Shown piece after piece: positions 1 through 8,599 of a stretch of 8,871 nt of DNA. Both the position numbers and the translations under genes were made by a program. The notes under the pieces are model-generated. The model saw nothing but the letters and a program-made list of their open reading frames with translations, was not told the DNA's origin and ran no database searches. Source of the stretch: Anaerolineae bacterium (GTDB lineage Bacteria > Chloroflexota > Anaerolineae > UBA1429); NCBI GenBank assembly GCA_016928125.1, contig JAFGLK010000400.1:1-8871 (forward strand). Direction: 5' to 3'. Positions within the stretch are counted from its first letter, which is position 1. Each line of letters opens with the position of its first letter.

Positions 1-937
1 CTGAGATCAGCCCGATCTGGAGCAGGAACTCAATCGATTCCTGCCAGGCGGCCTCCTCGCTCGCGCCCAGAGGCTCTCCCTGCCAAAAGTCGATGCAGTT
101 CTGCAGTACGGCCCGCTGCAGCCGGGCGGCCTCGTCATCCATCTCGGGAATGGCCTTGCGCGCGATCTCAAAGGCCGCATCAGGATCGGCTATCGTATCG
201 GCCAGGCCGCGCGAAAACGCACGCGCCACCCCGCGCACCACCTTGGGTTGCTTTTTGAGGGTCTCGTCGTTGGTGATCAGCCCGTTGGACACCAGGCTTG
301 TGTACTGGTCCAGGTAGAACGTGTTGATAGCGTATCCGCCTTCCGCAAGCTGAACCGGCTCGTTGAGCGCATAGCAGACGGCCGCATCGACGCGTCCCTC
401 GACCAGGCTGGCCACCTGGGTATATCCGATCGCCTGCAGGCTCACGCGATCCGAAGCGATGCCTACCTGATCGAGAAAAGCCAGCCAGCCAATATAGCTG
501 GCCCCCTCCGTGACGGGGATGCCCACCGTCTTGCCCACCAGGTCGCCAGGCTCGACGATGCCTTGGTCGGCCATCGAGACGACACACACGGGAAAGCGCC
601 GATACCAGTGAAAAAAGTACTTGACCGGCAGATCGTTGGCGCGCGCCAGGATGACCTGGTCTCCGCTGCCCAGGACAAACTGCAGGTCATTCGTGCCTAG
701 CCGTTTGAGCAGGTCGGTCTCCATGCCATAGTCCAGCTCGACTTTGAGGCCCTCCTCTGCAAAGTAGCCCTTTTCGATGGCCACATACATGGGCGTGAAT
801 TGCACGTTAGGGATAAAGCCCATCGCGATGGTGATGGCTTCCGGCTGCCCCCGGGCCCCGCCAATAGGCCCCCTGGCACAAGCAGCAAGCAGAAGCATCA
901 CCATCCAGACCAGCAGCAACCGTCTCGCTAGACGCAT
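1..937 (-). CDS. ribY: RibY-like ABC transporter substrate-binding lipoprotein (NMT1/THI5 family), 3' end cut by window edge
   Basis: The reading frame is open from ATG at 937 to the left edge (312 codons visible, no stop). The start has a strong ribosome binding site, GGAGGTG, about 6 bases upstream (942-948). The N-terminus is a lipoprotein signal: basic residues, a hydrophobic core and a lipobox LAAC with Cys20, so the protein should be anchored on the outer face of the membrane. The mature part has the NMT1/THI5 periplasmic-binding fold, seen in GFIPNVQFTPMYVAIEKGYF (40-59), LQFVLGSGDQVILARA (85-100), GKTVGIPVTEGASY (135-148) and EGRVDAAVCYALNEP (180-194). Family members are usually about 310-340 residues, so little is missing. 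By similarity alone it would be called a thiamine-precursor (ThiY-like) binding protein. The FMN riboswitch at the head of the operon makes riboflavin or FMN the likelier ligand, as for RibY of the RibXY system. It lies 37 bases after ribX in one operon. Family: high confidence. Ligand: inferred. Confidence 0.85.
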   Translation of the reverse strand, partial: MRLARRLLLVWMVMLLLAACARGPIGGARGQPEAITIAMGFIPNVQFTPMYVAIEKGYFAEEGLKVELDYGMETDLLKRLGTNDLQFVLGSGDQVILARANDLPVKYFFHWYRRFPVCVVSMADQGIVEPGDLVGKTVGIPVTEGASYIGWLAFLDQVGIASDRVSLQAIGYTQVASLVEGRVDAAVCYALNEPVQLAEGGYAINTFYLDQYTSLVSNGLITNDETLKKQPKVVRGVARAFSRGLADTIADPDAAFEIARKAIPEMDDEAARLQRAVLQNCIDFWQGEPLGASEEAAWQESIEFLLQIGLIS

Positions 938-974
938 CCGACACCTCCCCGCGTAAGATCTGCAGAGCAAAAGG

Positions 975-1796
975 CTACTCTTCGGGCCAGTGCCACTTGA
1001 GCAACCAGGACTCGAGCACCGAAACGACGAGATAGAGAGCCAGCGCGATGAACATGAGCGTAAAGAGCGCGACGAACATCAGCGCCGTATCAAAGAGCCC
1101 GCGCGCCAAGTTGACCAGGAAGCCCAAGCCGCGATCGGCGCCCACGAACTCGCCCACGACCGCCCCGATGACCGATAGGGTGACGCCCACCTTGAGCCCA
1201 CCCAGCAGGACGGGCAGGGCGGCAGGCAGCTCGAGGAAGCGAAAGATCTGCCAGCGGGTGGCCCGCAGAGAGCGCATCAACTCGAGCAAATCTTGCTCCA
1301 CCCCTCGAATGCCCACGATGGTGTTGATGAGCACAGGGAAGAAGAGGGTCAGGGCACACACCAGGACTTTGGACAGGCTGCCAGCCCCAAACCAGATCAC
1401 CAGCAGCGGCGCCAGGGCCACGACGGGTACCGCTTGCGAGGCCACGATGTATGGGGAGATCAGTCGTTCGAGGGTGCGCGACTTGGCCAGCAGATAGCCC
1501 AGAACGATCGCCACGCTCAGGCCCAGCGCCAGCCCGCCCAAGACCTCGCGCAAAGTGACTGCGGTGTGCATCAGCAGTGTGCCGTCGGTGATGGCGCCCA
1601 CAAAGCGCGCCATCACCCGCGCTGGAGTCGGCAGAATAAAGGAGGGGTACTCGCCCCACTCAACGACGAGCCGCCATAATCCCACAAAGAAAACGATGCT
1701 CGCGGGCACCAGCGCATGTGTCCAGTTCACCGGGAAGCGCACCTGGCGCCTGGTCCTGGACAGAAGACGATCTTTAAGGCTATCGGCGGTATGCAT
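975..1796 (-). CDS. ribX: RibX-like ABC transporter permease (ThiX/SsuC/TauC type)
   Basis: A 273-residue inner-membrane permease of the BPD_transp_1 family. A cytoplasmic basic N-terminus (1-25) is followed by a first membrane helix near 28-46, the typical PSFILPTPARV segment (51-61), helices near 85-104, 118-136, 141-163 and 200-220, and a last one near 238-261. The coupling (EAA) loop that docks the ATPase is visible as ELMRSLRATRWQIFRFLELP (172-191), with the usual small residue in the middle and LP at the end. The ATG at 1796 fits the family's N-terminal length, but it has only a GGGG about 10 bases upstream, and that GGGG is part of the leader terminator. This makes the ribosome binding site weak and overlapping with the attenuator. 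It is the first gene after an FMN riboswitch and precedes the binding-protein gene, so the pair is RibXY-like and probably imports riboflavin. No ATPase gene is visible in the window; it may lie beyond the left edge or be shared with another transporter. Confidence 0.85.
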   Translation of the reverse strand: MHTADSLKDRLLSRTRRQVRFPVNWTHALVPASIVFFVGLWRLVVEWGEYPSFILPTPARVMARFVGAITDGTLLMHTAVTLREVLGGLALGLSVAIVLGYLLAKSRTLERLISPYIVASQAVPVVALAPLLVIWFGAGSLSKVLVCALTLFFPVLINTIVGIRGVEQDLLELMRSLRATRWQIFRFLELPAALPVLLGGLKVGVTLSVIGAVVGEFVGADRGLGFLVNLARGLFDTALMFVALFTLMFIALALYLVVSVLESWLLKWHWPEE

Positions 1797-1800
1797 AACG

Positions 1801-1829
1801 AAAAAACCCCGCGCTCAACAGCATCGGGG
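1801..1829 (-). terminator. Intrinsic terminator of the FMN riboswitch expression platform
   Basis: Read on the minus strand, the stem is CCCCG paired with CGGGG, with an inner GCT/AGC pairing and a GTTG loop, followed directly by TTTTTT (1801-1806). The U-tract ends only 4 bases before the ribX ATG. The upstream arm GCCCCGA (1824-1830) is exactly complementary, over 7 bases, to TCGGGGC at the 5' edge of the riboswitch (1989-1995). The leader can therefore fold either as antiterminator or as aptamer plus terminator: FMN binding should stop transcription before ribX. Confidence 0.85.
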
Positions 1830-1856
1830 CTCACATCGAAGCGACGAATCGTTCGC

Positions 1857-1999
1857 GCCTTCTTCCATCCGGACTGTACCGTCGGTTCCGGCTTTGCACC
1901 GGATCCACCACATACGTGGCTCGCGGACTCGGCCCCGTCAGGCCATACCGCCGATCGGGAATTGGCTCCATTTGCGAAGCCTCACCCTGCCCCGAAGGC
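1857..1999 (-). promoter_or_regulatory. FMN riboswitch (RFN element) controlling ribXY
   Basis: The minus strand carries the conserved RFN core in order: the closing P1 arm GCCTTC (1994-1999), GGGGCAGGGTG, a P2 hairpin GGCT/AGCC, ATTCCCGATCGGCGGTA, the AGTCCGCGAGCC segment, GATCCGGTG, CCGGAACCGACGGTACAGTC, then GGATGGAAGAAGGC, which closes P1 (GAAGGC, 1857-1862). These blocks match the FMN aptamer consensus closely, including the nearly invariant CCGACGGT and GGATG-AAG parts. It lies between a near-consensus promoter and an intrinsic terminator just ahead of ribX, the standard transcription-attenuation layout. FMN binding is expected to switch the transporter off. Identification is from recalled consensus, not a covariance-model search. 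Confidence 0.96.
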
Positions 2000-2021
2000 T
2001 GTTCTTTTTGCTACCATACAT

Positions 2022-2050
2022 ATCATAGCGGAGACGAGAGCGTTTGTCAA
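2022..2050 (-). promoter_or_regulatory. Sigma70-type promoter of the riboswitch-ribXY operon
   Basis: On the minus strand there is a perfect -35 TTGACA (2045-2050), a 17-base spacer and -10 TATGAT (2022-2027). Transcription should start near 2014-2016, about 15 bases before the riboswitch P1 arm. The match is close to consensus, which fits a leader whose control is mainly by termination. Confidence 0.85.
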
Positions 2051-2108: not shown

Positions 2109-2137
2109 TGGACAAAACCTTGTGTCAACGATATACT
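2109..2137 (+). promoter_or_regulatory. Sigma70-type promoter of the PHP phosphoesterase-sppA unit
   Basis: TGGACA (2109-2114, five of six bases of the -35 consensus), a 17-base spacer, then TATACT (2132-2137). The expected start near 2144 leaves a leader of about 37 bases before the ATG at 2181. It is divergent from the ribXY promoter, with the two -35 boxes about 58 bases apart. Confidence 0.7.
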
Positions 2138-2180: not shown

Positions 2181-3074
2181 ATGCACTGGACCAGCCCTTT
2201 CTCACTCGCCGGCCACTGGTACAAAGGCAATCTTCACACACATACCACCCAGTCCGACGGCCTCTTTACGCCCGACCAAGCCATCGCATGGTACCGCGAA
2301 CACGGTTACGACTTTATCGCCGTGACCGACCACTGGGTCTTCACCCAGGGTCAGACATTTGCACCATCCACTCAGTTCATCACCCTCAGTGGGGCCGAGC
2401 TACACGGCCCGGGATACCATATGCTGGCCCTGGGCAGCTTTGCACTGCCGGATGAGGCCACCGGGGACTCGGCCCAAGCGATAGCGGATGCCATCGGCCG
2501 TCAGGGGGGGCTGGCCTACATCGCGCATCCCTACTGGATGGGCCAGACTTCGGCCGACATAGGCCAGATCGGGGGGCTGGCTGGCGTGGAGGTGTTCAAC
2601 TCGGTTTGCGAGATGATGGATGGCCTGGGCTATGCCAGCGTGCAATGGGACGAGCTGTTGGCCAGCGGCCTGCGCTTGACCGGGCTTGCCGTGGACGATG
2701 TGCACTGGAGGCACGGCGCTCAAGGCCAGGGCTTTGTGATGGTGCGTGCTCCGCAGCTTGAGGAACAGGCCATCCTGGAGGCGCTTCGTTCTGGCCACTT
2801 TTACGCCAGCACGGGACCCACACTGAGCGACCTGCGCGTCGTGGCGGGCTCGGACGGCGGCCCTGCGCTTCAGGTTCGCTGCTCGCCCTGCCAATCGATC
2901 ACCTTCTACGCCGCGGCATCGCACGGGCACCGCTTCAAGGCCGCGGCTGGGGAGTGGCTGGATGGCGCCGTCTGGCCCATCCGAGCTGAGCAGGTCTACC
3001 TGCGCGTCGAGTGCCGCGACGCCATGGGCCACACGGCGTGGAGCAACCCCGTCTTTGTGCAGGACGTGCTCTGA
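2181..3074 (+). CDS. PHP-domain metal-dependent phosphoesterase
   Basis: A 297-residue protein with the polymerase-and-histidinol-phosphatase (PHP) fold. All metal-ligand motifs are visible: NLHTHTTQSDG (17-27, His19 and His21), VTDHW (48-52, Asp50 and His51), GAELH (71-75, Glu73 and His75), AHPYW (His116) and DDVHW (172-176). PHP enzymes of this type hydrolyse phosphoesters with two or three bound metal ions; the substrate cannot be read from the sequence. The last third (about 195-297) looks like a beta-rich appended domain, a common layout in CehA/McbA-like PHP proteins. No signal peptide is seen, so it should be cytoplasmic. I chose ATG 2181 because GGGGGA (2167-2172) lies 8 bases upstream and the protein begins just before motif I. 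The frame stays open back to 1716, but that stretch covers the riboswitch, terminator and promoters. It is probably cotranscribed with sppA, whose start lies 83 bases after its stop. Confidence 0.9.
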   Translation: MHWTSPFSLAGHWYKGNLHTHTTQSDGLFTPDQAIAWYREHGYDFIAVTDHWVFTQGQTFAPSTQFITLSGAELHGPGYHMLALGSFALPDEATGDSAQAIADAIGRQGGLAYIAHPYWMGQTSADIGQIGGLAGVEVFNSVCEMMDGLGYASVQWDELLASGLRLTGLAVDDVHWRHGAQGQGFVMVRAPQLEEQAILEALRSGHFYASTGPTLSDLRVVAGSDGGPALQVRCSPCQSITFYAAASHGHRFKAAAGEWLDGAVWPIRAEQVYLRVECRDAMGHTAWSNPVFVQDVL

Positions 3075-4174: not shown

Positions 4175-5281
4175 TCAGCCCCTGCGCGCGACATCCTCGC
4201 GCGCGATATCTTCGCGCGCGAGCAACTTCAAAAAGGCCGCGGCTTCCTCAGGCGCCATCTCATCCGAGATGACCAGAAGGAATCCGCGCCCGCCGATGTT
4301 GCGCATCACGCCCAGCGCTCCCTCGGCGGTCACGTAGATCTGACAGAGCTTGCCCGCGTCAATGATGCGTTTGAGCAGGCGCAACCACTGGTCCGGCGAA
4401 GGATGGCCATCGCCAGGGATCCACTGAATGCCTCGCAGACGGGGGATGCTCAACAAAAGATCGAGATGAGCGATCTGACCCGGGCCATCCAGATGATAGA
4501 AGCCCTGATCCAGAAAATCGCAACAGGCGATCAGATCGGGCATCACAAAGCGCTCGAACATGCCGGGTGAGATCATGTAGGCCAAGTCGCTCTGCAGCAT
4601 GTATGTGCGCCCCTTGGCCCAGATGGGCGCCCACGGTCCCGTGCCGTGACAGGTGGGACGGATGATGCCGTCCAGCTCAGCGTAGGCGGTGAGCCACTGA
4701 GCGGTTACCTCGCGGACCAGACGCTCGATCTCCTCTGGGGCGTCGTACAGGTCCAAAAGCAGCCCCTCGCTGGTCCGAAGGGAAGCCAGGATATCCAGAT
4801 TTCCGCCCAGATCCGTGTGGCAGACCTGCACCTGGCCCTGCCAGGCCTCCACCGCGAGCTCGGTGAGTCGCACGATGCGCCGCCACCAGCGGTTGCTGGC
4901 ATCTCGGGCATGTGTCAGGTGCAGATCATGGGCGGCGACGGGCTGAGCTGGCTCGAACCACACCGTGTCGGGCACCACGCGCACATGGGCGCCCAGGGCG
5001 CCCGCCAGAATGCCAGGCCCAAAGTTGACCCACCAGCGCGGATAGGCGTCTCCATAGTAACGCGTGGCCTCCAGGTCACGCGTGACATCCTGGACGATCT
5101 CCTCCTCAGAGACCGACCAGGGATAGTTGCTGACAAAACTATGCACCTCAGCATAGTCCACGCCCGGCACATGGGTCTTGCCAGCGAGATACACCAGCGG
5201 GCGCTCTAGATCGTGGGCCCACCAGGCCTCATAATCGCGCTCGATACGCTCCCAATCGCGCTCAGTGAAATGTAGGTCCAT
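4175..5281 (-). CDS. Uroporphyrinogen decarboxylase/methyltransferase (UroD-MtaA) superfamily protein
   Basis: A 368-residue protein resembling the divergent UroD-like group that includes corrinoid-dependent methyltransferases. Recognisable segments are CHTDLGGNLDILASLR (154-169), LYDAPEEIERLVREV (178-192), SDLAYMISPGMFERFVMPDL (231-250) and YHLDGPGQIAHLDLLLSIPR (262-281), followed by GIQWIPGDG (284-292), as expected for the late strands of a TIM barrel. Methyltransferases such as MtaA/MtbA use a zinc site of the form His-X-Cys; the matching place here seems to be His263-Leu-Asp265, so cysteine is replaced by aspartate. True haem-pathway UroD is unlikely, since its N-terminal arginine and substrate motifs are not visible. 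Function is therefore open: methyl transfer, decarboxylation, or something else. The ATG follows directly on the TAG of the upstream PEP-CTERM gene and has no ribosome binding site of its own, so translation is probably coupled. The last residues come from a 15-bp DNA repeat. Confidence 0.75.
   Translation of the reverse strand: MDLHFTERDWERIERDYEAWWAHDLERPLVYLAGKTHVPGVDYAEVHSFVSNYPWSVSEEEIVQDVTRDLEATRYYGDAYPRWWVNFGPGILAGALGAHVRVVPDTVWFEPAQPVAAHDLHLTHARDASNRWWRRIVRLTELAVEAWQGQVQVCHTDLGGNLDILASLRTSEGLLLDLYDAPEEIERLVREVTAQWLTAYAELDGIIRPTCHGTGPWAPIWAKGRTYMLQSDLAYMISPGMFERFVMPDLIACCDFLDQGFYHLDGPGQIAHLDLLLSIPRLRGIQWIPGDGHPSPDQWLRLLKRIIDAGKLCQIYVTAEGALGVMRNIGGRGFLLVISDEMAPEEAAAFLKLLAREDIAREDVARRG
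4184..4222. repeat. 15-bp tandem repeat at the 3' end of the UroD-like gene
   Basis: GCGCGCGACATCCTC (4184-4198) and GCGCGCGATATCTTC (4199-4213), then a partial third copy to 4222. The period is a multiple of three, and the repeat encodes AREDIAREDVA just before the stop. It probably arose by slippage and alters only the C-terminal tail. Confidence 0.75.
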
Positions 5282-6643
5282 CTAACGCCGGTTTCGCAGT
5301 AGCCCGGCCAGGGCGCCCAGACCCAGGCCCACGAGCAGAAGCGAGGCAGGCTCGGGCACCTCCGGGGTGGCCGGCGGCGGGGTGGGGGTCTCGGGCGGCG
5401 GCGTGACTGTGACGTCTTGACATTCGGGCACGGAGACCACAGCCGAAACTTCGAGGGGCGTCTCTAGATTGTCAAAGGAGGCGCTTCCCGCGATGCTCAG
5501 GTCCTCCGCTCGGAGACCGCTGGCTCGCGCAGTCCACAGGGCGGAGGCGACCCCAGACGGGGCTACATCGCCCAATGCCCGTGGGCCGGGCGATCCACTG
5601 ACCAGCGTGAGCTCTGGCGGCAACGAGATCGTGGCGGTGCCGTTTACCAGCGCCTCCGCGAGAATGTTCGAGACCCAAAGCGTCACATCGAATTGCAGAT
5701 CGGAGCACTCGACGCGCGCCGGCAGATCGAGCCAGATCCGTCCACCGCCAGGTCCCCCCAAGCCATAAGCTGTTCGGACGCCATAAGACGCGCCAGGACT
5801 CAACGCCCGCGGTCCCCACCAGTAGGCCACAGCTGTGTCACCCGCGTTGGCACCCGGGGTCACCGTGTAGTCCCAAACCGTGTCGACAATACCTTGGCCA
5901 TCGCCGCGGTCCCCAAACCAAGTCGCCACGACGAATCGATCGGGGGTGCTCATGCCATACCCCTTGAGCAGCCCCTGCGCTCTGAGGCTATCCACCGCAT
6001 ACGAGGCGGATTCGAATGCTTTGAAATAGGTGGGCATATCCGCCGCGGCGAACTCCCGCTCTGTGTTCAACTGGCCAACTCCAGGCATAAAGAGGGGTGC
6101 ATAGTCATTCATTCCAACCATCAAGTCCAGCATGCACCGTACGCCCGCTTGCAGGGCGGTCGAGCCCGTATTGCGCAGCGTATACTCGATGCGCACCAGG
6201 TCCTCGCGGCCCGTGTAAGGGTTGTCCATCAAAGACACGGCCTGCGTCACCTCAACGCCGTCGAGAAGCCAGCGCGTGACGATAAACCCACTCTCGAGGT
6301 TGGGGCCGTAGGCGGGCGCCGTATCGATCAAGACATAGTCATGGGTCTCGCCCCCGGTGATCACCCGCAGTGAGGGGAATCCACTGAGACTGGGGCTTGG
6401 ATAGTTGTACAGGAGCTTCTTGTTGTCATCCTCGTCGGTGTGGGGATCCCCGCCCGTCGTGCCGATCACCACCGCCCCCTTGGCCGCCACGATGGCACGA
6501 ACAAGACCATTTTGCAGCGAAGCACCCCCCGCTTGGGCCAGATCCGTATCCCGCGCCGGACCCTTGTCTGCTAGCGCACGCGCAGGCAGCGCGATCAGTG
6601 TAATTATCACCAAGCCCAGAATCCAGCGCCGATAGGGTCGCAT
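5282..6643 (-). CDS. Secreted protein with C-terminal PEP-CTERM sorting signal
   Basis: A 453-residue protein. The N-terminus is a Sec signal peptide: MRPYRR, a hydrophobic core (about 7-20) and a likely signal peptidase I site after ALA (residue 25). The body is beta-rich, with no catalytic motif that I recognise; a segment near 325-410 has the strand pattern of Ig-like or DUF11-type extracellular domains. A proline/threonine-rich linker (about 411-428) leads into the tail: VPEPAS (429-434), a glycine/leucine-rich membrane helix, and an arginine-rich end RNRR. This is the PEP-CTERM architecture, recognised by exosortase in bacteria that export polysaccharide. The protein should therefore be processed at the membrane and displayed or released outside. 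GGAGG lies 9 bases before the ATG, and a promoter lies at 6679-6707. It forms a two-gene unit with the UroD-like gene, with no bases between stop and start. The role of the body is unknown. Confidence 0.88.
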   Translation of the reverse strand: MRPYRRWILGLVIITLIALPARALADKGPARDTDLAQAGGASLQNGLVRAIVAAKGAVVIGTTGGDPHTDEDDNKKLLYNYPSPSLSGFPSLRVITGGETHDYVLIDTAPAYGPNLESGFIVTRWLLDGVEVTQAVSLMDNPYTGREDLVRIEYTLRNTGSTALQAGVRCMLDLMVGMNDYAPLFMPGVGQLNTEREFAAADMPTYFKAFESASYAVDSLRAQGLLKGYGMSTPDRFVVATWFGDRGDGQGIVDTVWDYTVTPGANAGDTAVAYWWGPRALSPGASYGVRTAYGLGGPGGGRIWLDLPARVECSDLQFDVTLWVSNILAEALVNGTATISLPPELTLVSGSPGPRALGDVAPSGVASALWTARASGLRAEDLSIAGSASFDNLETPLEVSAVVSVPECQDVTVTPPPETPTPPPATPEVPEPASLLLVGLGLGALAGLLRNRR

Positions 6644-7426: not shown

Positions 7427-8599
7427 ATGCCCGAACCCCTGACCATCGATGGCTCCCACGGCGAGGGAGGCGGCCAGATCGTGCGCACGGCGTTGGCCAT
7501 CTCCGCTGCTGGGGGCCGGGCCGTGCGTCTTGAGCGGATCCGCGCGCGTCGCGACCCCCCAGGCTTGCGGCCGCAACACCTGGCCGCTGTCCGCGCTCTG
7601 GGCCAAATCTGCAACGCGCAGATCGAGGGTGACACCTTGGGCTCGCGCACACTCTTCTTTGAGCCAACCTCCCCTCCCCAAGCCGGGGACTACCGCTTTG
7701 ATATCACCGATCTCGCGGGCACCTCCAGTGCGGGATCGGTCACCCTGCTCTTCCAGGCCCTATTCATTCCCCTGGCGCTGGCCCCGACCGATTCACACGT
7801 GACGCTCTGTGGGGGCACCCACACCCGCTGGAGCCCGCCCTATCATTATCTGACCGAGGTCTATCTGCCCCTGATGCGACGCATCGGCTTTTCGGCCGAG
7901 CTGAGCCTGAAGCAATGGGGCTGGTACCCTCGAGGCGGGGGACAGGTGGAGGCGACCATTCGGAGCATGGCCGACGATGTACAGCAACTCGCTCCGATCG
8001 ATCTCTGCGACCGTGGCAGCCTCCTGAGCGTCAGGGGGCTATCGGCAGCGTCGAACCTACCCGAGCACGTGGTCCAACGCCAGCGGGATCAGGCCCTGCG
8101 TCGTCTGCGTTCGCGGCACATCAAAGGCGAGATCGAGATCGTCGCCGCTCCGTCGCCGGGGCCCGGCACGGTGCTGTTCCTGGCGGCCGAGTATGAGCAG
8201 ATCACGACGGGCTTCACCGGCTATGGGCGCCTGCGCTATCCAGCCGAGAAGGTCGCCGACGACGCCTTTGAGGCCTTTGACGCCCATCGCAAATCGAAGG
8301 CGGCCCTCGACCCGCATCTGGCAGACCAGGTCATCCTGCCGCTGTCCCTGGTCTCCGCGCCCTCGACCTTCACCACGAGCGAGATCAGTCGGCATCTCCT
8401 CACGGTAAGCTGGGTGGTGCAACGGTTCGGCCTGCGCGAGTCGGAACTCGCGGGCGAGTCGGAACTCGCGGGCGAGCCGGAACTCGCGGGCGAGCCGGAA
8501 CTCGCGGGCGAGCGAGAGCTAGCAGGTGAGCTCTTGCTCGCCCAGGCGATCCGGATCGAGGGCGAGGAGGGCCAGCCAGGCAAGGTGACGATCGGCTAG
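7427..8599 (+). CDS. rtcA: RNA 3'-terminal phosphate cyclase RtcA with a C-terminal repeat insertion
   Basis: RtcA converts an RNA 3'-phosphate to a 2',3'-cyclic phosphate using ATP, through an enzyme-AMP intermediate on histidine. Family motifs are plain: IDGSHGEGGGQIVRTALAIS (7-26), RPQHLAAV (48-55), GGTHTRWSPPYHYL (129-142), YPRGGGQV (167-174) and DPHLADQ (295-301). In the last, His297 corresponds to the adenylated His309 of E. coli RtcA. The protein is 390 residues against about 340 for typical RtcA. Most of the excess is a run of five six-residue repeats (338-367, pattern E-x-E-L-A-G) between VVQRFGLR and the normal final strands IRIEGEEGQPGKVTI. ATG 7427 matches the family's N-terminus. 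It has no strong ribosome binding site but starts 7 bases after the hydrolase stop, which suggests coupling. An open frame extends back to 7328, but this would overlap the upstream gene. No rtcB ligase is in the window. Confidence 0.95.
   Translation: MPEPLTIDGSHGEGGGQIVRTALAISAAGGRAVRLERIRARRDPPGLRPQHLAAVRALGQICNAQIEGDTLGSRTLFFEPTSPPQAGDYRFDITDLAGTSSAGSVTLLFQALFIPLALAPTDSHVTLCGGTHTRWSPPYHYLTEVYLPLMRRIGFSAELSLKQWGWYPRGGGQVEATIRSMADDVQQLAPIDLCDRGSLLSVRGLSAASNLPEHVVQRQRDQALRRLRSRHIKGEIEIVAAPSPGPGTVLFLAAEYEQITTGFTGYGRLRYPAEKVADDAFEAFDAHRKSKAALDPHLADQVILPLSLVSAPSTFTTSEISRHLLTVSWVVQRFGLRESELAGESELAGEPELAGEPELAGERELAGELLLAQAIRIEGEEGQPGKVTIG
8438..8527 (+). repeat. Five-copy 18-bp tandem repeat inside rtcA
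   Basis: Copies run 8438-8455, 8456-8473, 8474-8491, 8492-8509 and 8510-8527. The first two are identical (gagtcggaactcgcgggc), the next two differ from them by one base (tcg to ccg) and are identical to each other, and the fifth is degenerate. The repeat is in frame and encodes ESELAG/EPELAG/ERELAG. Each junction holds CTCGCGGGCGAG, an imperfect palindrome. Near-identity of four copies suggests recent expansion. Confidence 0.95.

Follow-up and report, generated by a model that had tools for sequence, protein, structure and literature searches.

A predicted riboflavin importer locus, ribXY, under an FMN riboswitch in an Anaerolineae bacterium

We analysed a stretch of 8,871 nucleotides from an Anaerolineae bacterium (phylum Chloroflexota; GenBank assembly GCA_016928125.1, contig JAFGLK010000400.1), referred to below as the window. 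At its left end, the minus strand carries a flavin mononucleotide (FMN) riboswitch, followed by ribX, encoding the permease of an ATP-binding cassette (ABC) importer, and then by ribY, encoding a substrate-binding lipoprotein. The features of this locus are listed below.

2..937, minus strand: ribY, substrate-binding lipoprotein of the NMT1/THI5 family (PF09084, 156.8 bits); C-terminus cut by the window edge
975..1796, minus strand: ribX, ABC importer permease of 273 amino acids (BPD_transp_1, PF00528, 113.7 bits)
1801..1830, minus strand: hairpin resembling an intrinsic terminator (GCCCCG...CGGGGT) with a U6 tract that stops 4 nt short of the ribX start codon (read from the sequence; hairpin fold -15.9 kcal/mol)
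1817..1830, minus strand: 5' arm and loop of the terminator (GCCCCGATGCTGTT), right half of the antiterminator (leader folding and arm-pairing comparison)
1853..2003, minus strand: FMN riboswitch aptamer (RFN element), RF00050 (cmscan, 93.7 bits, E 3.9e-21)
1989..2003, minus strand: 5' strand of aptamer stem P1 with its neighbour (AACAGCCTTCGGGGC), left half of the antiterminator (ligand-free leader fold; duplex -24.9 kcal/mol)
2022..2050, minus strand: predicted sigma-70-like promoter, TTGACA-17-TATGAT, just before the aptamer (consensus scan, 11/12 matches)

The aptamer, read from 2003 to 1853, was the only Rfam match of the window at the gathering threshold. It covers the full model (positions 1-138 of 138), and its 93.7 bits compare with a gathering score of 66.2. 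The same scan found no thiamine pyrophosphate (TPP) riboswitch, which commonly but not always controls ThiXYZ operons among the Chloroflexota loci analysed, in the window at that threshold. A preliminary description of this DNA had placed an RFN element directly ahead of a permease and a THI5-family lipoprotein and had proposed a covariance-model search. The matches to RF00050, BPD_transp_1 and the NMT1/THI5-like family bear this out, and the span of 1-2050 that it gave fits the promoter-like site at 2050-2022.

The ribY open reading frame as listed starts at TTG 970 (2-970), and we regard the gene as cut by the window because the frame runs to the window edge without a stop. ATG 937 is a more likely start than the upstream TTG, and the database copy of the protein has 312 amino acids. 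The lipobox cysteine C31 is invariant in all 46 sequences of our alignment. The NCBIfam search of the window proteins returned ribX and ribY below cut-off only, to models of sulfonate, taurine, nitrate and other transporters. A sulfonate or taurine transporter was rejected on these scores (SsuA 41.9 with a cut-off of 163.5; TauA 30.7 with a cut-off of 304.25). Where close homologues have been named by their source, they are listed as NitT/TauT (nitrate/taurine) family proteins or simply as ABC substrate-binding proteins.

We constructed a tree of 45 binding proteins, and found a single split between 32 FMN-labelled rows and 13 TPP/ThiY rows, with a support of 100/100 and recovery in 100% of 200 bootstrap trees. 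The FMN-riboswitch side includes both the window's ribY and RibY of Chloroflexus aurantiacus, and the phylogeny proposed in the preliminary description places the protein apart from ThiY. With the FMN model match, neither of the two sequence-based outcomes that the description had named as refuting has occurred. Of the 13 TPP/ThiY rows, ten come from Chloroflexota loci that we selected, one is a C. aurantiacus protein and two are solved structures. The ten loci (L103-L112) are those of 30 TPP loci that have a ribX homologue, and are no measure of how often such genes are controlled by a TPP riboswitch. Two FMN-linked proteins, one in a 601-aa frame (L087) and one a 138-aa fragment (L096), were left out by the length filter.

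The two groups also differ at individual residues. We identified 23 positions at which the FMN group is fixed to 90% or more and whose residue occurs in no more than 2 of the 13 rows of the ThiY group; at three of them the ThiY group itself is uniform in kind. G51 is found in 29/32 RibY-group rows (serine in C. aurantiacus) versus aspartate in 13/13 ThiY-group rows, L226 in 30/32 versus tyrosine in 13/13, and N203 in 31/32 versus tryptophan or histidine in 13/13. These data support the assignment of the sequence to the RibY side rather than the ThiY side, and flavin binding is predicted.

RibXY is a known system. Sun et al. 2013 (PMC3766115) named RibXY in Chloroflexi and predicted it from FMN riboswitches. 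PMC4418817 reports that C. aurantiacus RibXY restored the growth of an E. coli riboflavin auxotroph; it also cites Rodionova et al. for flavin binding, and quotes them on RibXYZ with an ATP-binding gene in 'a few' Chloroflexi species. In those species, as in the relatives of the window described below, an ATP-binding gene is added to ribXY. The C. aurantiacus genome was found through a match to a published primer, in one of 158 genomes of a class, and both published primers flank the ribX-ribY pair. This locus (strain J-10-fl, Caur_0816-0817) is like that of the window in its FMN riboswitch (103.3 bits), in the order of permease and binding protein, and in its side of the tree.

The window's ribX is 49% identical to C. 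aurantiacus RibX over 261 columns, and its ribY is 40% identical to C. aurantiacus RibY over 288 columns (query 44-323 of 323, subject 47-334 of 353). Even without its C-terminus, ribY passes the initial ortholog threshold given in PMC4418817 (>38% identity and ≥80% coverage to C. aurantiacus RibY, adjusted for some families). The mechanism itself is already established, and the window is a new example of RibXY known in the same phylum. The preliminary description recognised that such systems are known from Chloroflexi, in agreement with the two papers, and its assignment to riboflavin transport holds; its claim that the riboswitch 'reassigns' the transporter to riboflavin/FMN uptake was overstated, because both had already published the assignment. 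The present analysis adds a separation of RibY from ThiY based on further Chloroflexota sequences, evidence for the antiterminator, and gene counts across the class. Since the riboswitch and the tree give the likely substrate class, the homologues listed as NitT/TauT or plain ABC proteins can be renamed.

We found seven loci with ribY relatives (51-71% identity) in the genome collection, all from metagenome-assembled genomes (MAGs) of Chloroflexi or Anaerolineae. These loci (L001-L007) represent six genomes, with L005 and L007 being two contigs of one MAG. An FMN riboswitch lies upstream in 6/7 loci, the exception being L005, whose contig begins inside ribY. An ATPase (ribZ) homologue follows ribY in all six loci with continuing sequence (L001-L006), and L007 ends inside ribY. 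The full unit in the relatives is (riboswitch-)ribX-ribY-ribZ. Because the ATPase gene follows ribY there, the window's unit is probably ribXYZ as well, with ribZ past base 1. The C. aurantiacus locus differs from L001-L006 in this respect, as a search of its 10-kb locus yielded no ATPase homologue. In the viral collection, three stretches matched a pattern, and none of them encodes a relative.

The arrangement recurs beyond these close relatives. Among 34 FMN loci (L008-L041), a ribX homologue lies downstream in 31, only ribY in one (L017), and neither in two (L014, L036). Among 30 longer FMN regions of our own choice (L073-L102), ribX, ribY and ribZ homologues are all present in 23, and a partial set is found in four (L074, L094, L096, L102). 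Individual regions deviate in their layout. L087 (G106), one of the 23, has the changed order ribZ-ribX-ribY, with ribY inside the 601-aa frame, and in L093 (G017) the ribX and ribY frames lie ~1.3 kb apart. In L096 (G063:C52), the riboswitch is followed by just the 138-aa RibY-like fragment in the region read; its genome has lumazine synthase and no RibY match at E 1e-40, and the locus is possibly a decaying importer.

We also examined 121 genomes from the class to which the L001 genome belongs (listed as Anaerolineae). They were an even draw from a larger group, for which at least 90% completeness was requested and no completeness values were given, and stricter filters in the riboswitch search mean that weak matches were lost. 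A ribY homologue lies within 4 kb downstream on the same strand for 80/97 FMN riboswitch matches, and conversely 80/96 RibY matches have an FMN riboswitch upstream. Of the 16 RibY matches without this link, five begin no more than 10 bases from the first base of their contig. For at least 8 of the 17 unlinked riboswitches (G038, G102, G034, G050, G008, G020, G063:C62, G085), lumazine synthase or 3,4-dihydroxy-2-butanone 4-phosphate (DHBP) synthase lies within a few kb on the same contig, and these eight are therefore probable biosynthesis operons.

In the leader, after the aptamer, the terminator reads GCCCCG-ATGCTGTTGAGCG-CGGGG and six U, with the ribX start codon 4 nt on. In the ligand-free minimum-energy fold of the leader, the aptamer first strand (AACAGC and TCGGGGC) pairs with GCCCCGA and GCTGTT of the terminator, with a duplex energy of -24.9 kcal/mol. 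By prediction, the expression platform is able to switch between two pairings.

Similar terminator hairpins were found in the leaders of relatives; this hairpin search was permissive and lacked a separate control, and only the arm pairing was compared with shuffles. Over 36 leaders, the pairing of the terminator 5' arm with the aptamer strand averaged 20.3, versus 12.1 for shuffled arms (standard deviation of single shuffles 3.0). The outer, variable part of the antiterminator was tested apart from the invariant core in 30 anchored leaders, leaving out the six without an anchor. Here a leader's own partner beats the partners of other leaders, and 0/5000 permutations reach the observed mean; the result holds with 25 distinct 5' arms. 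Since the terminator 5' arm can pair alternatively with the aptamer first strand across leaders, this suggests that the leader is an FMN-off transcription switch, which is the established reading for such leaders.

To evaluate the riboflavin supply of the relatives, we searched for the riboswitch, RibY and flavin enzymes. In the 121 genomes, FMN riboswitches are found in 86 over the cut-off (90 at E 1e-3 or better) and RibY in 93 (E 1e-40 or better). Lumazine synthase is present in 12, DHBP synthase in 11 and flavin adenine dinucleotide (FAD) synthetase in 118. Lumazine synthase over the cut-off is missing from 85 of the 93 RibY-bearing genomes, and 8 of the 12 genomes with lumazine synthase have RibY too. 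In the six genomes of the closest relatives, neither lumazine synthase (one weak match of 22.9 bits in G006) nor DHBP synthase was found over the cut-off, and both were detected in 14/14 control genomes; FAD synthetase was found in 4/6 of these relatives and 10/14 controls. Since RibY and FAD synthetase are common and lumazine and DHBP synthases rare, uptake appears to be the main flavin supply, and most of the 121 genomes appear to belong to riboflavin auxotrophs that depend on import.

Taken together, we consider it very probable that the locus is an operon for riboflavin import, comprising ribXY and probably, past the window edge, ribZ, under an FMN riboswitch that would turn it off. RibY, a lipoprotein anchored by Cys31, would catch extracellular riboflavin or a related flavin, and RibX would move it through the membrane with energy from the RibZ ATPase. 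Inside the cell, RibF, which we infer for the window's organism, would make FMN and FAD. When FMN is plentiful, it would bind the nascent leader and lock aptamer stem P1, allowing the terminator hairpin before ribX to form and end transcription. At low FMN, the aptamer first strand would pair with the terminator 5' arm as an antiterminator, and the operon would be transcribed.

The name of the protein family raises another possibility, namely that the transporter takes up a thiamine pyrimidine precursor as ThiXYZ, which has the same architecture, and that the FMN riboswitch is an odd case of cross-regulation. Besides the Pfam label NMT1/THI5-like, the closest solved structures by sequence and fold speak for it. 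The AlphaFold2 model of ribY (mean predicted local distance difference test score, pLDDT, 90.6) has the same fold as its best matches, ThiY 3ix1 of Bacillus halodurans and the thiamin-bound 4nmy (Foldseek template modelling score 0.73 and 0.75 by query length; 28% and 22% identity), followed by THI5 and, further down, by PqqT, which binds pyrroloquinoline quinone (PQQ). However, both of these structures lie on the opposite side of the tree, with the group-specific positions replaced. Chloroflexota ThiXYZ homologues, which have a TPP riboswitch where the window has an FMN riboswitch, fall across the 100/100 split as well; they score 45-67 bits against the window's ribY, versus 212-495 bits for complete binding proteins under FMN riboswitches (83 bits for the L096 fragment). 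The RibY group carries other residues at positions where the ThiY group is fixed. A thiamine function is unsupported by the tree and by these residues, and we regard it as very improbable.

The importer could also act on another flavin-like compound (FMN, lumichrome, a deazaflavin or a roseoflavin-type analogue) and not on riboflavin itself. Sequence cannot separate these candidates, and PqqT (9b1u, 9b1v, 9ooz), which holds a large aromatic redox cofactor in a related periplasmic-binding fold, differs from ribY in its ligand and in its low identity (16-17%). Since PqqT shares the fold neighbourhood, the superfamily can hold bulky aromatic cofactors. The complementation of the E. coli riboflavin auxotroph noted above (PMC4418817) nevertheless points to riboflavin. 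In addition, the two biosynthesis families missing from the six relatives' genomes, together with FAD synthetase in four of them, fit riboflavin import. Riboflavin rather than FMN is thus the presumed substrate, and a different flavin is quite unlikely. As to the mode of control, the leader might act mainly on translation, with the hairpin hiding the only G-rich candidate ribosome-binding site of ribX and with termination secondary. In the window, 4 nt separate the U-tract from the start codon, and the nearby purine-rich GGGG lies inside the 3' arm of the hairpin. In six relatives (L001, L002, L003, L004, L007, L019), as in the window, an in-frame ATG adjoins the U-tract or comes close to it, and for this reason the hairpin may also hide the ribosome site in all seven. 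Hairpins serving both as terminator and as ribosome-site mask have been described in riboswitch surveys. On the other side, a GC-rich hairpin with a U-tract is how an intrinsic terminator typically looks, and the hairpin is farther from the gene in other relatives, such as L006. Control mainly at translation therefore seems rather unlikely.

Several observations weigh against a riboflavin importer under a transcription switch and against the supply pattern described above. In the tree, row TPP_L112 has a long branch, and both TPP_L112 and 4nmy deviate in composition. Because a sequence search found no solved RibY structure, the proposed specificity residues are correlations. Three of the 30 longer FMN regions (L073, L088, L095) have no transporter homologue, so the riboswitch alone does not imply RibXY. 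In 9 of the 30 leaders the outer antiterminator part pairs weakly (above -3 kcal/mol), and the permutation test ignores kinship among leaders in addition to covering 30 of the 36. A simple consensus scan of the region for terminators found 0, with 0.5 expected; the hairpin and U-tract are plain in the sequence. Of the 121 genomes, 19 show neither RibY, lumazine synthase nor the riboswitch, and contig numbers point to many draft genomes. The auxotrophy counts cover homologues of the named enzyme and importer families only.

On balance, we lean slightly towards a broader proposal, in which riboflavin auxotrophy would be the rule in the class Anaerolineae, with RibXYZ as the main flavin entry and most of the class, the window's organism included, living on the vitamin B2 of neighbours, and in which the ribX leader hairpin would be terminator and ribosome-site mask at once. 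If true, the leader would be a compact design with one hairpin for both tasks. The uptake need that the gene counts suggest for most of the sampled relatives is a testable dependency in microbial communities. No statement of class-wide riboflavin auxotrophy in Anaerolineae was found in the available portions of PMC8129789 and PMC6169038, and an earlier publication is possible, for example that of Rodionova et al. on B-vitamin auxotrophy in Chloroflexi. PMC6169038 reports a freshwater Chloroflexi MAG in which the cobalamin salvage and riboflavin pathway is nearly complete.

The promoter scan of the region found two promoter-like sites, with 0.3 expected. The second (2109-2137, plus strand) faces in the opposite direction to that of ribX and lies ahead of a CehA/McbA-type metallohydrolase gene (2181-3074). 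Given the two opposed sites, the ribX operon and the metallohydrolase gene are probably divergently transcribed.

Farther into the window, the 368-aa protein encoded at 4175-5281 (minus strand) had no Pfam or NCBIfam match at E 0.001; visual inspection suggests a possible resemblance to the uroporphyrinogen decarboxylase-like group. The protein encoded at 5282-6643 (minus strand) carries a C-terminal PEP-CTERM sorting motif on this Chloroflexota-like contig, and its body has no Pfam match. An RtcA-like gene (7427-8599), for an RNA 3'-phosphate cyclase, contains an 18-bp tandem repeat of 4.3 copies with 98% matches (8436-8513, plus strand), which lies in frame at the C-terminus and adds a tail of the ELAGES/ELAGEP type.

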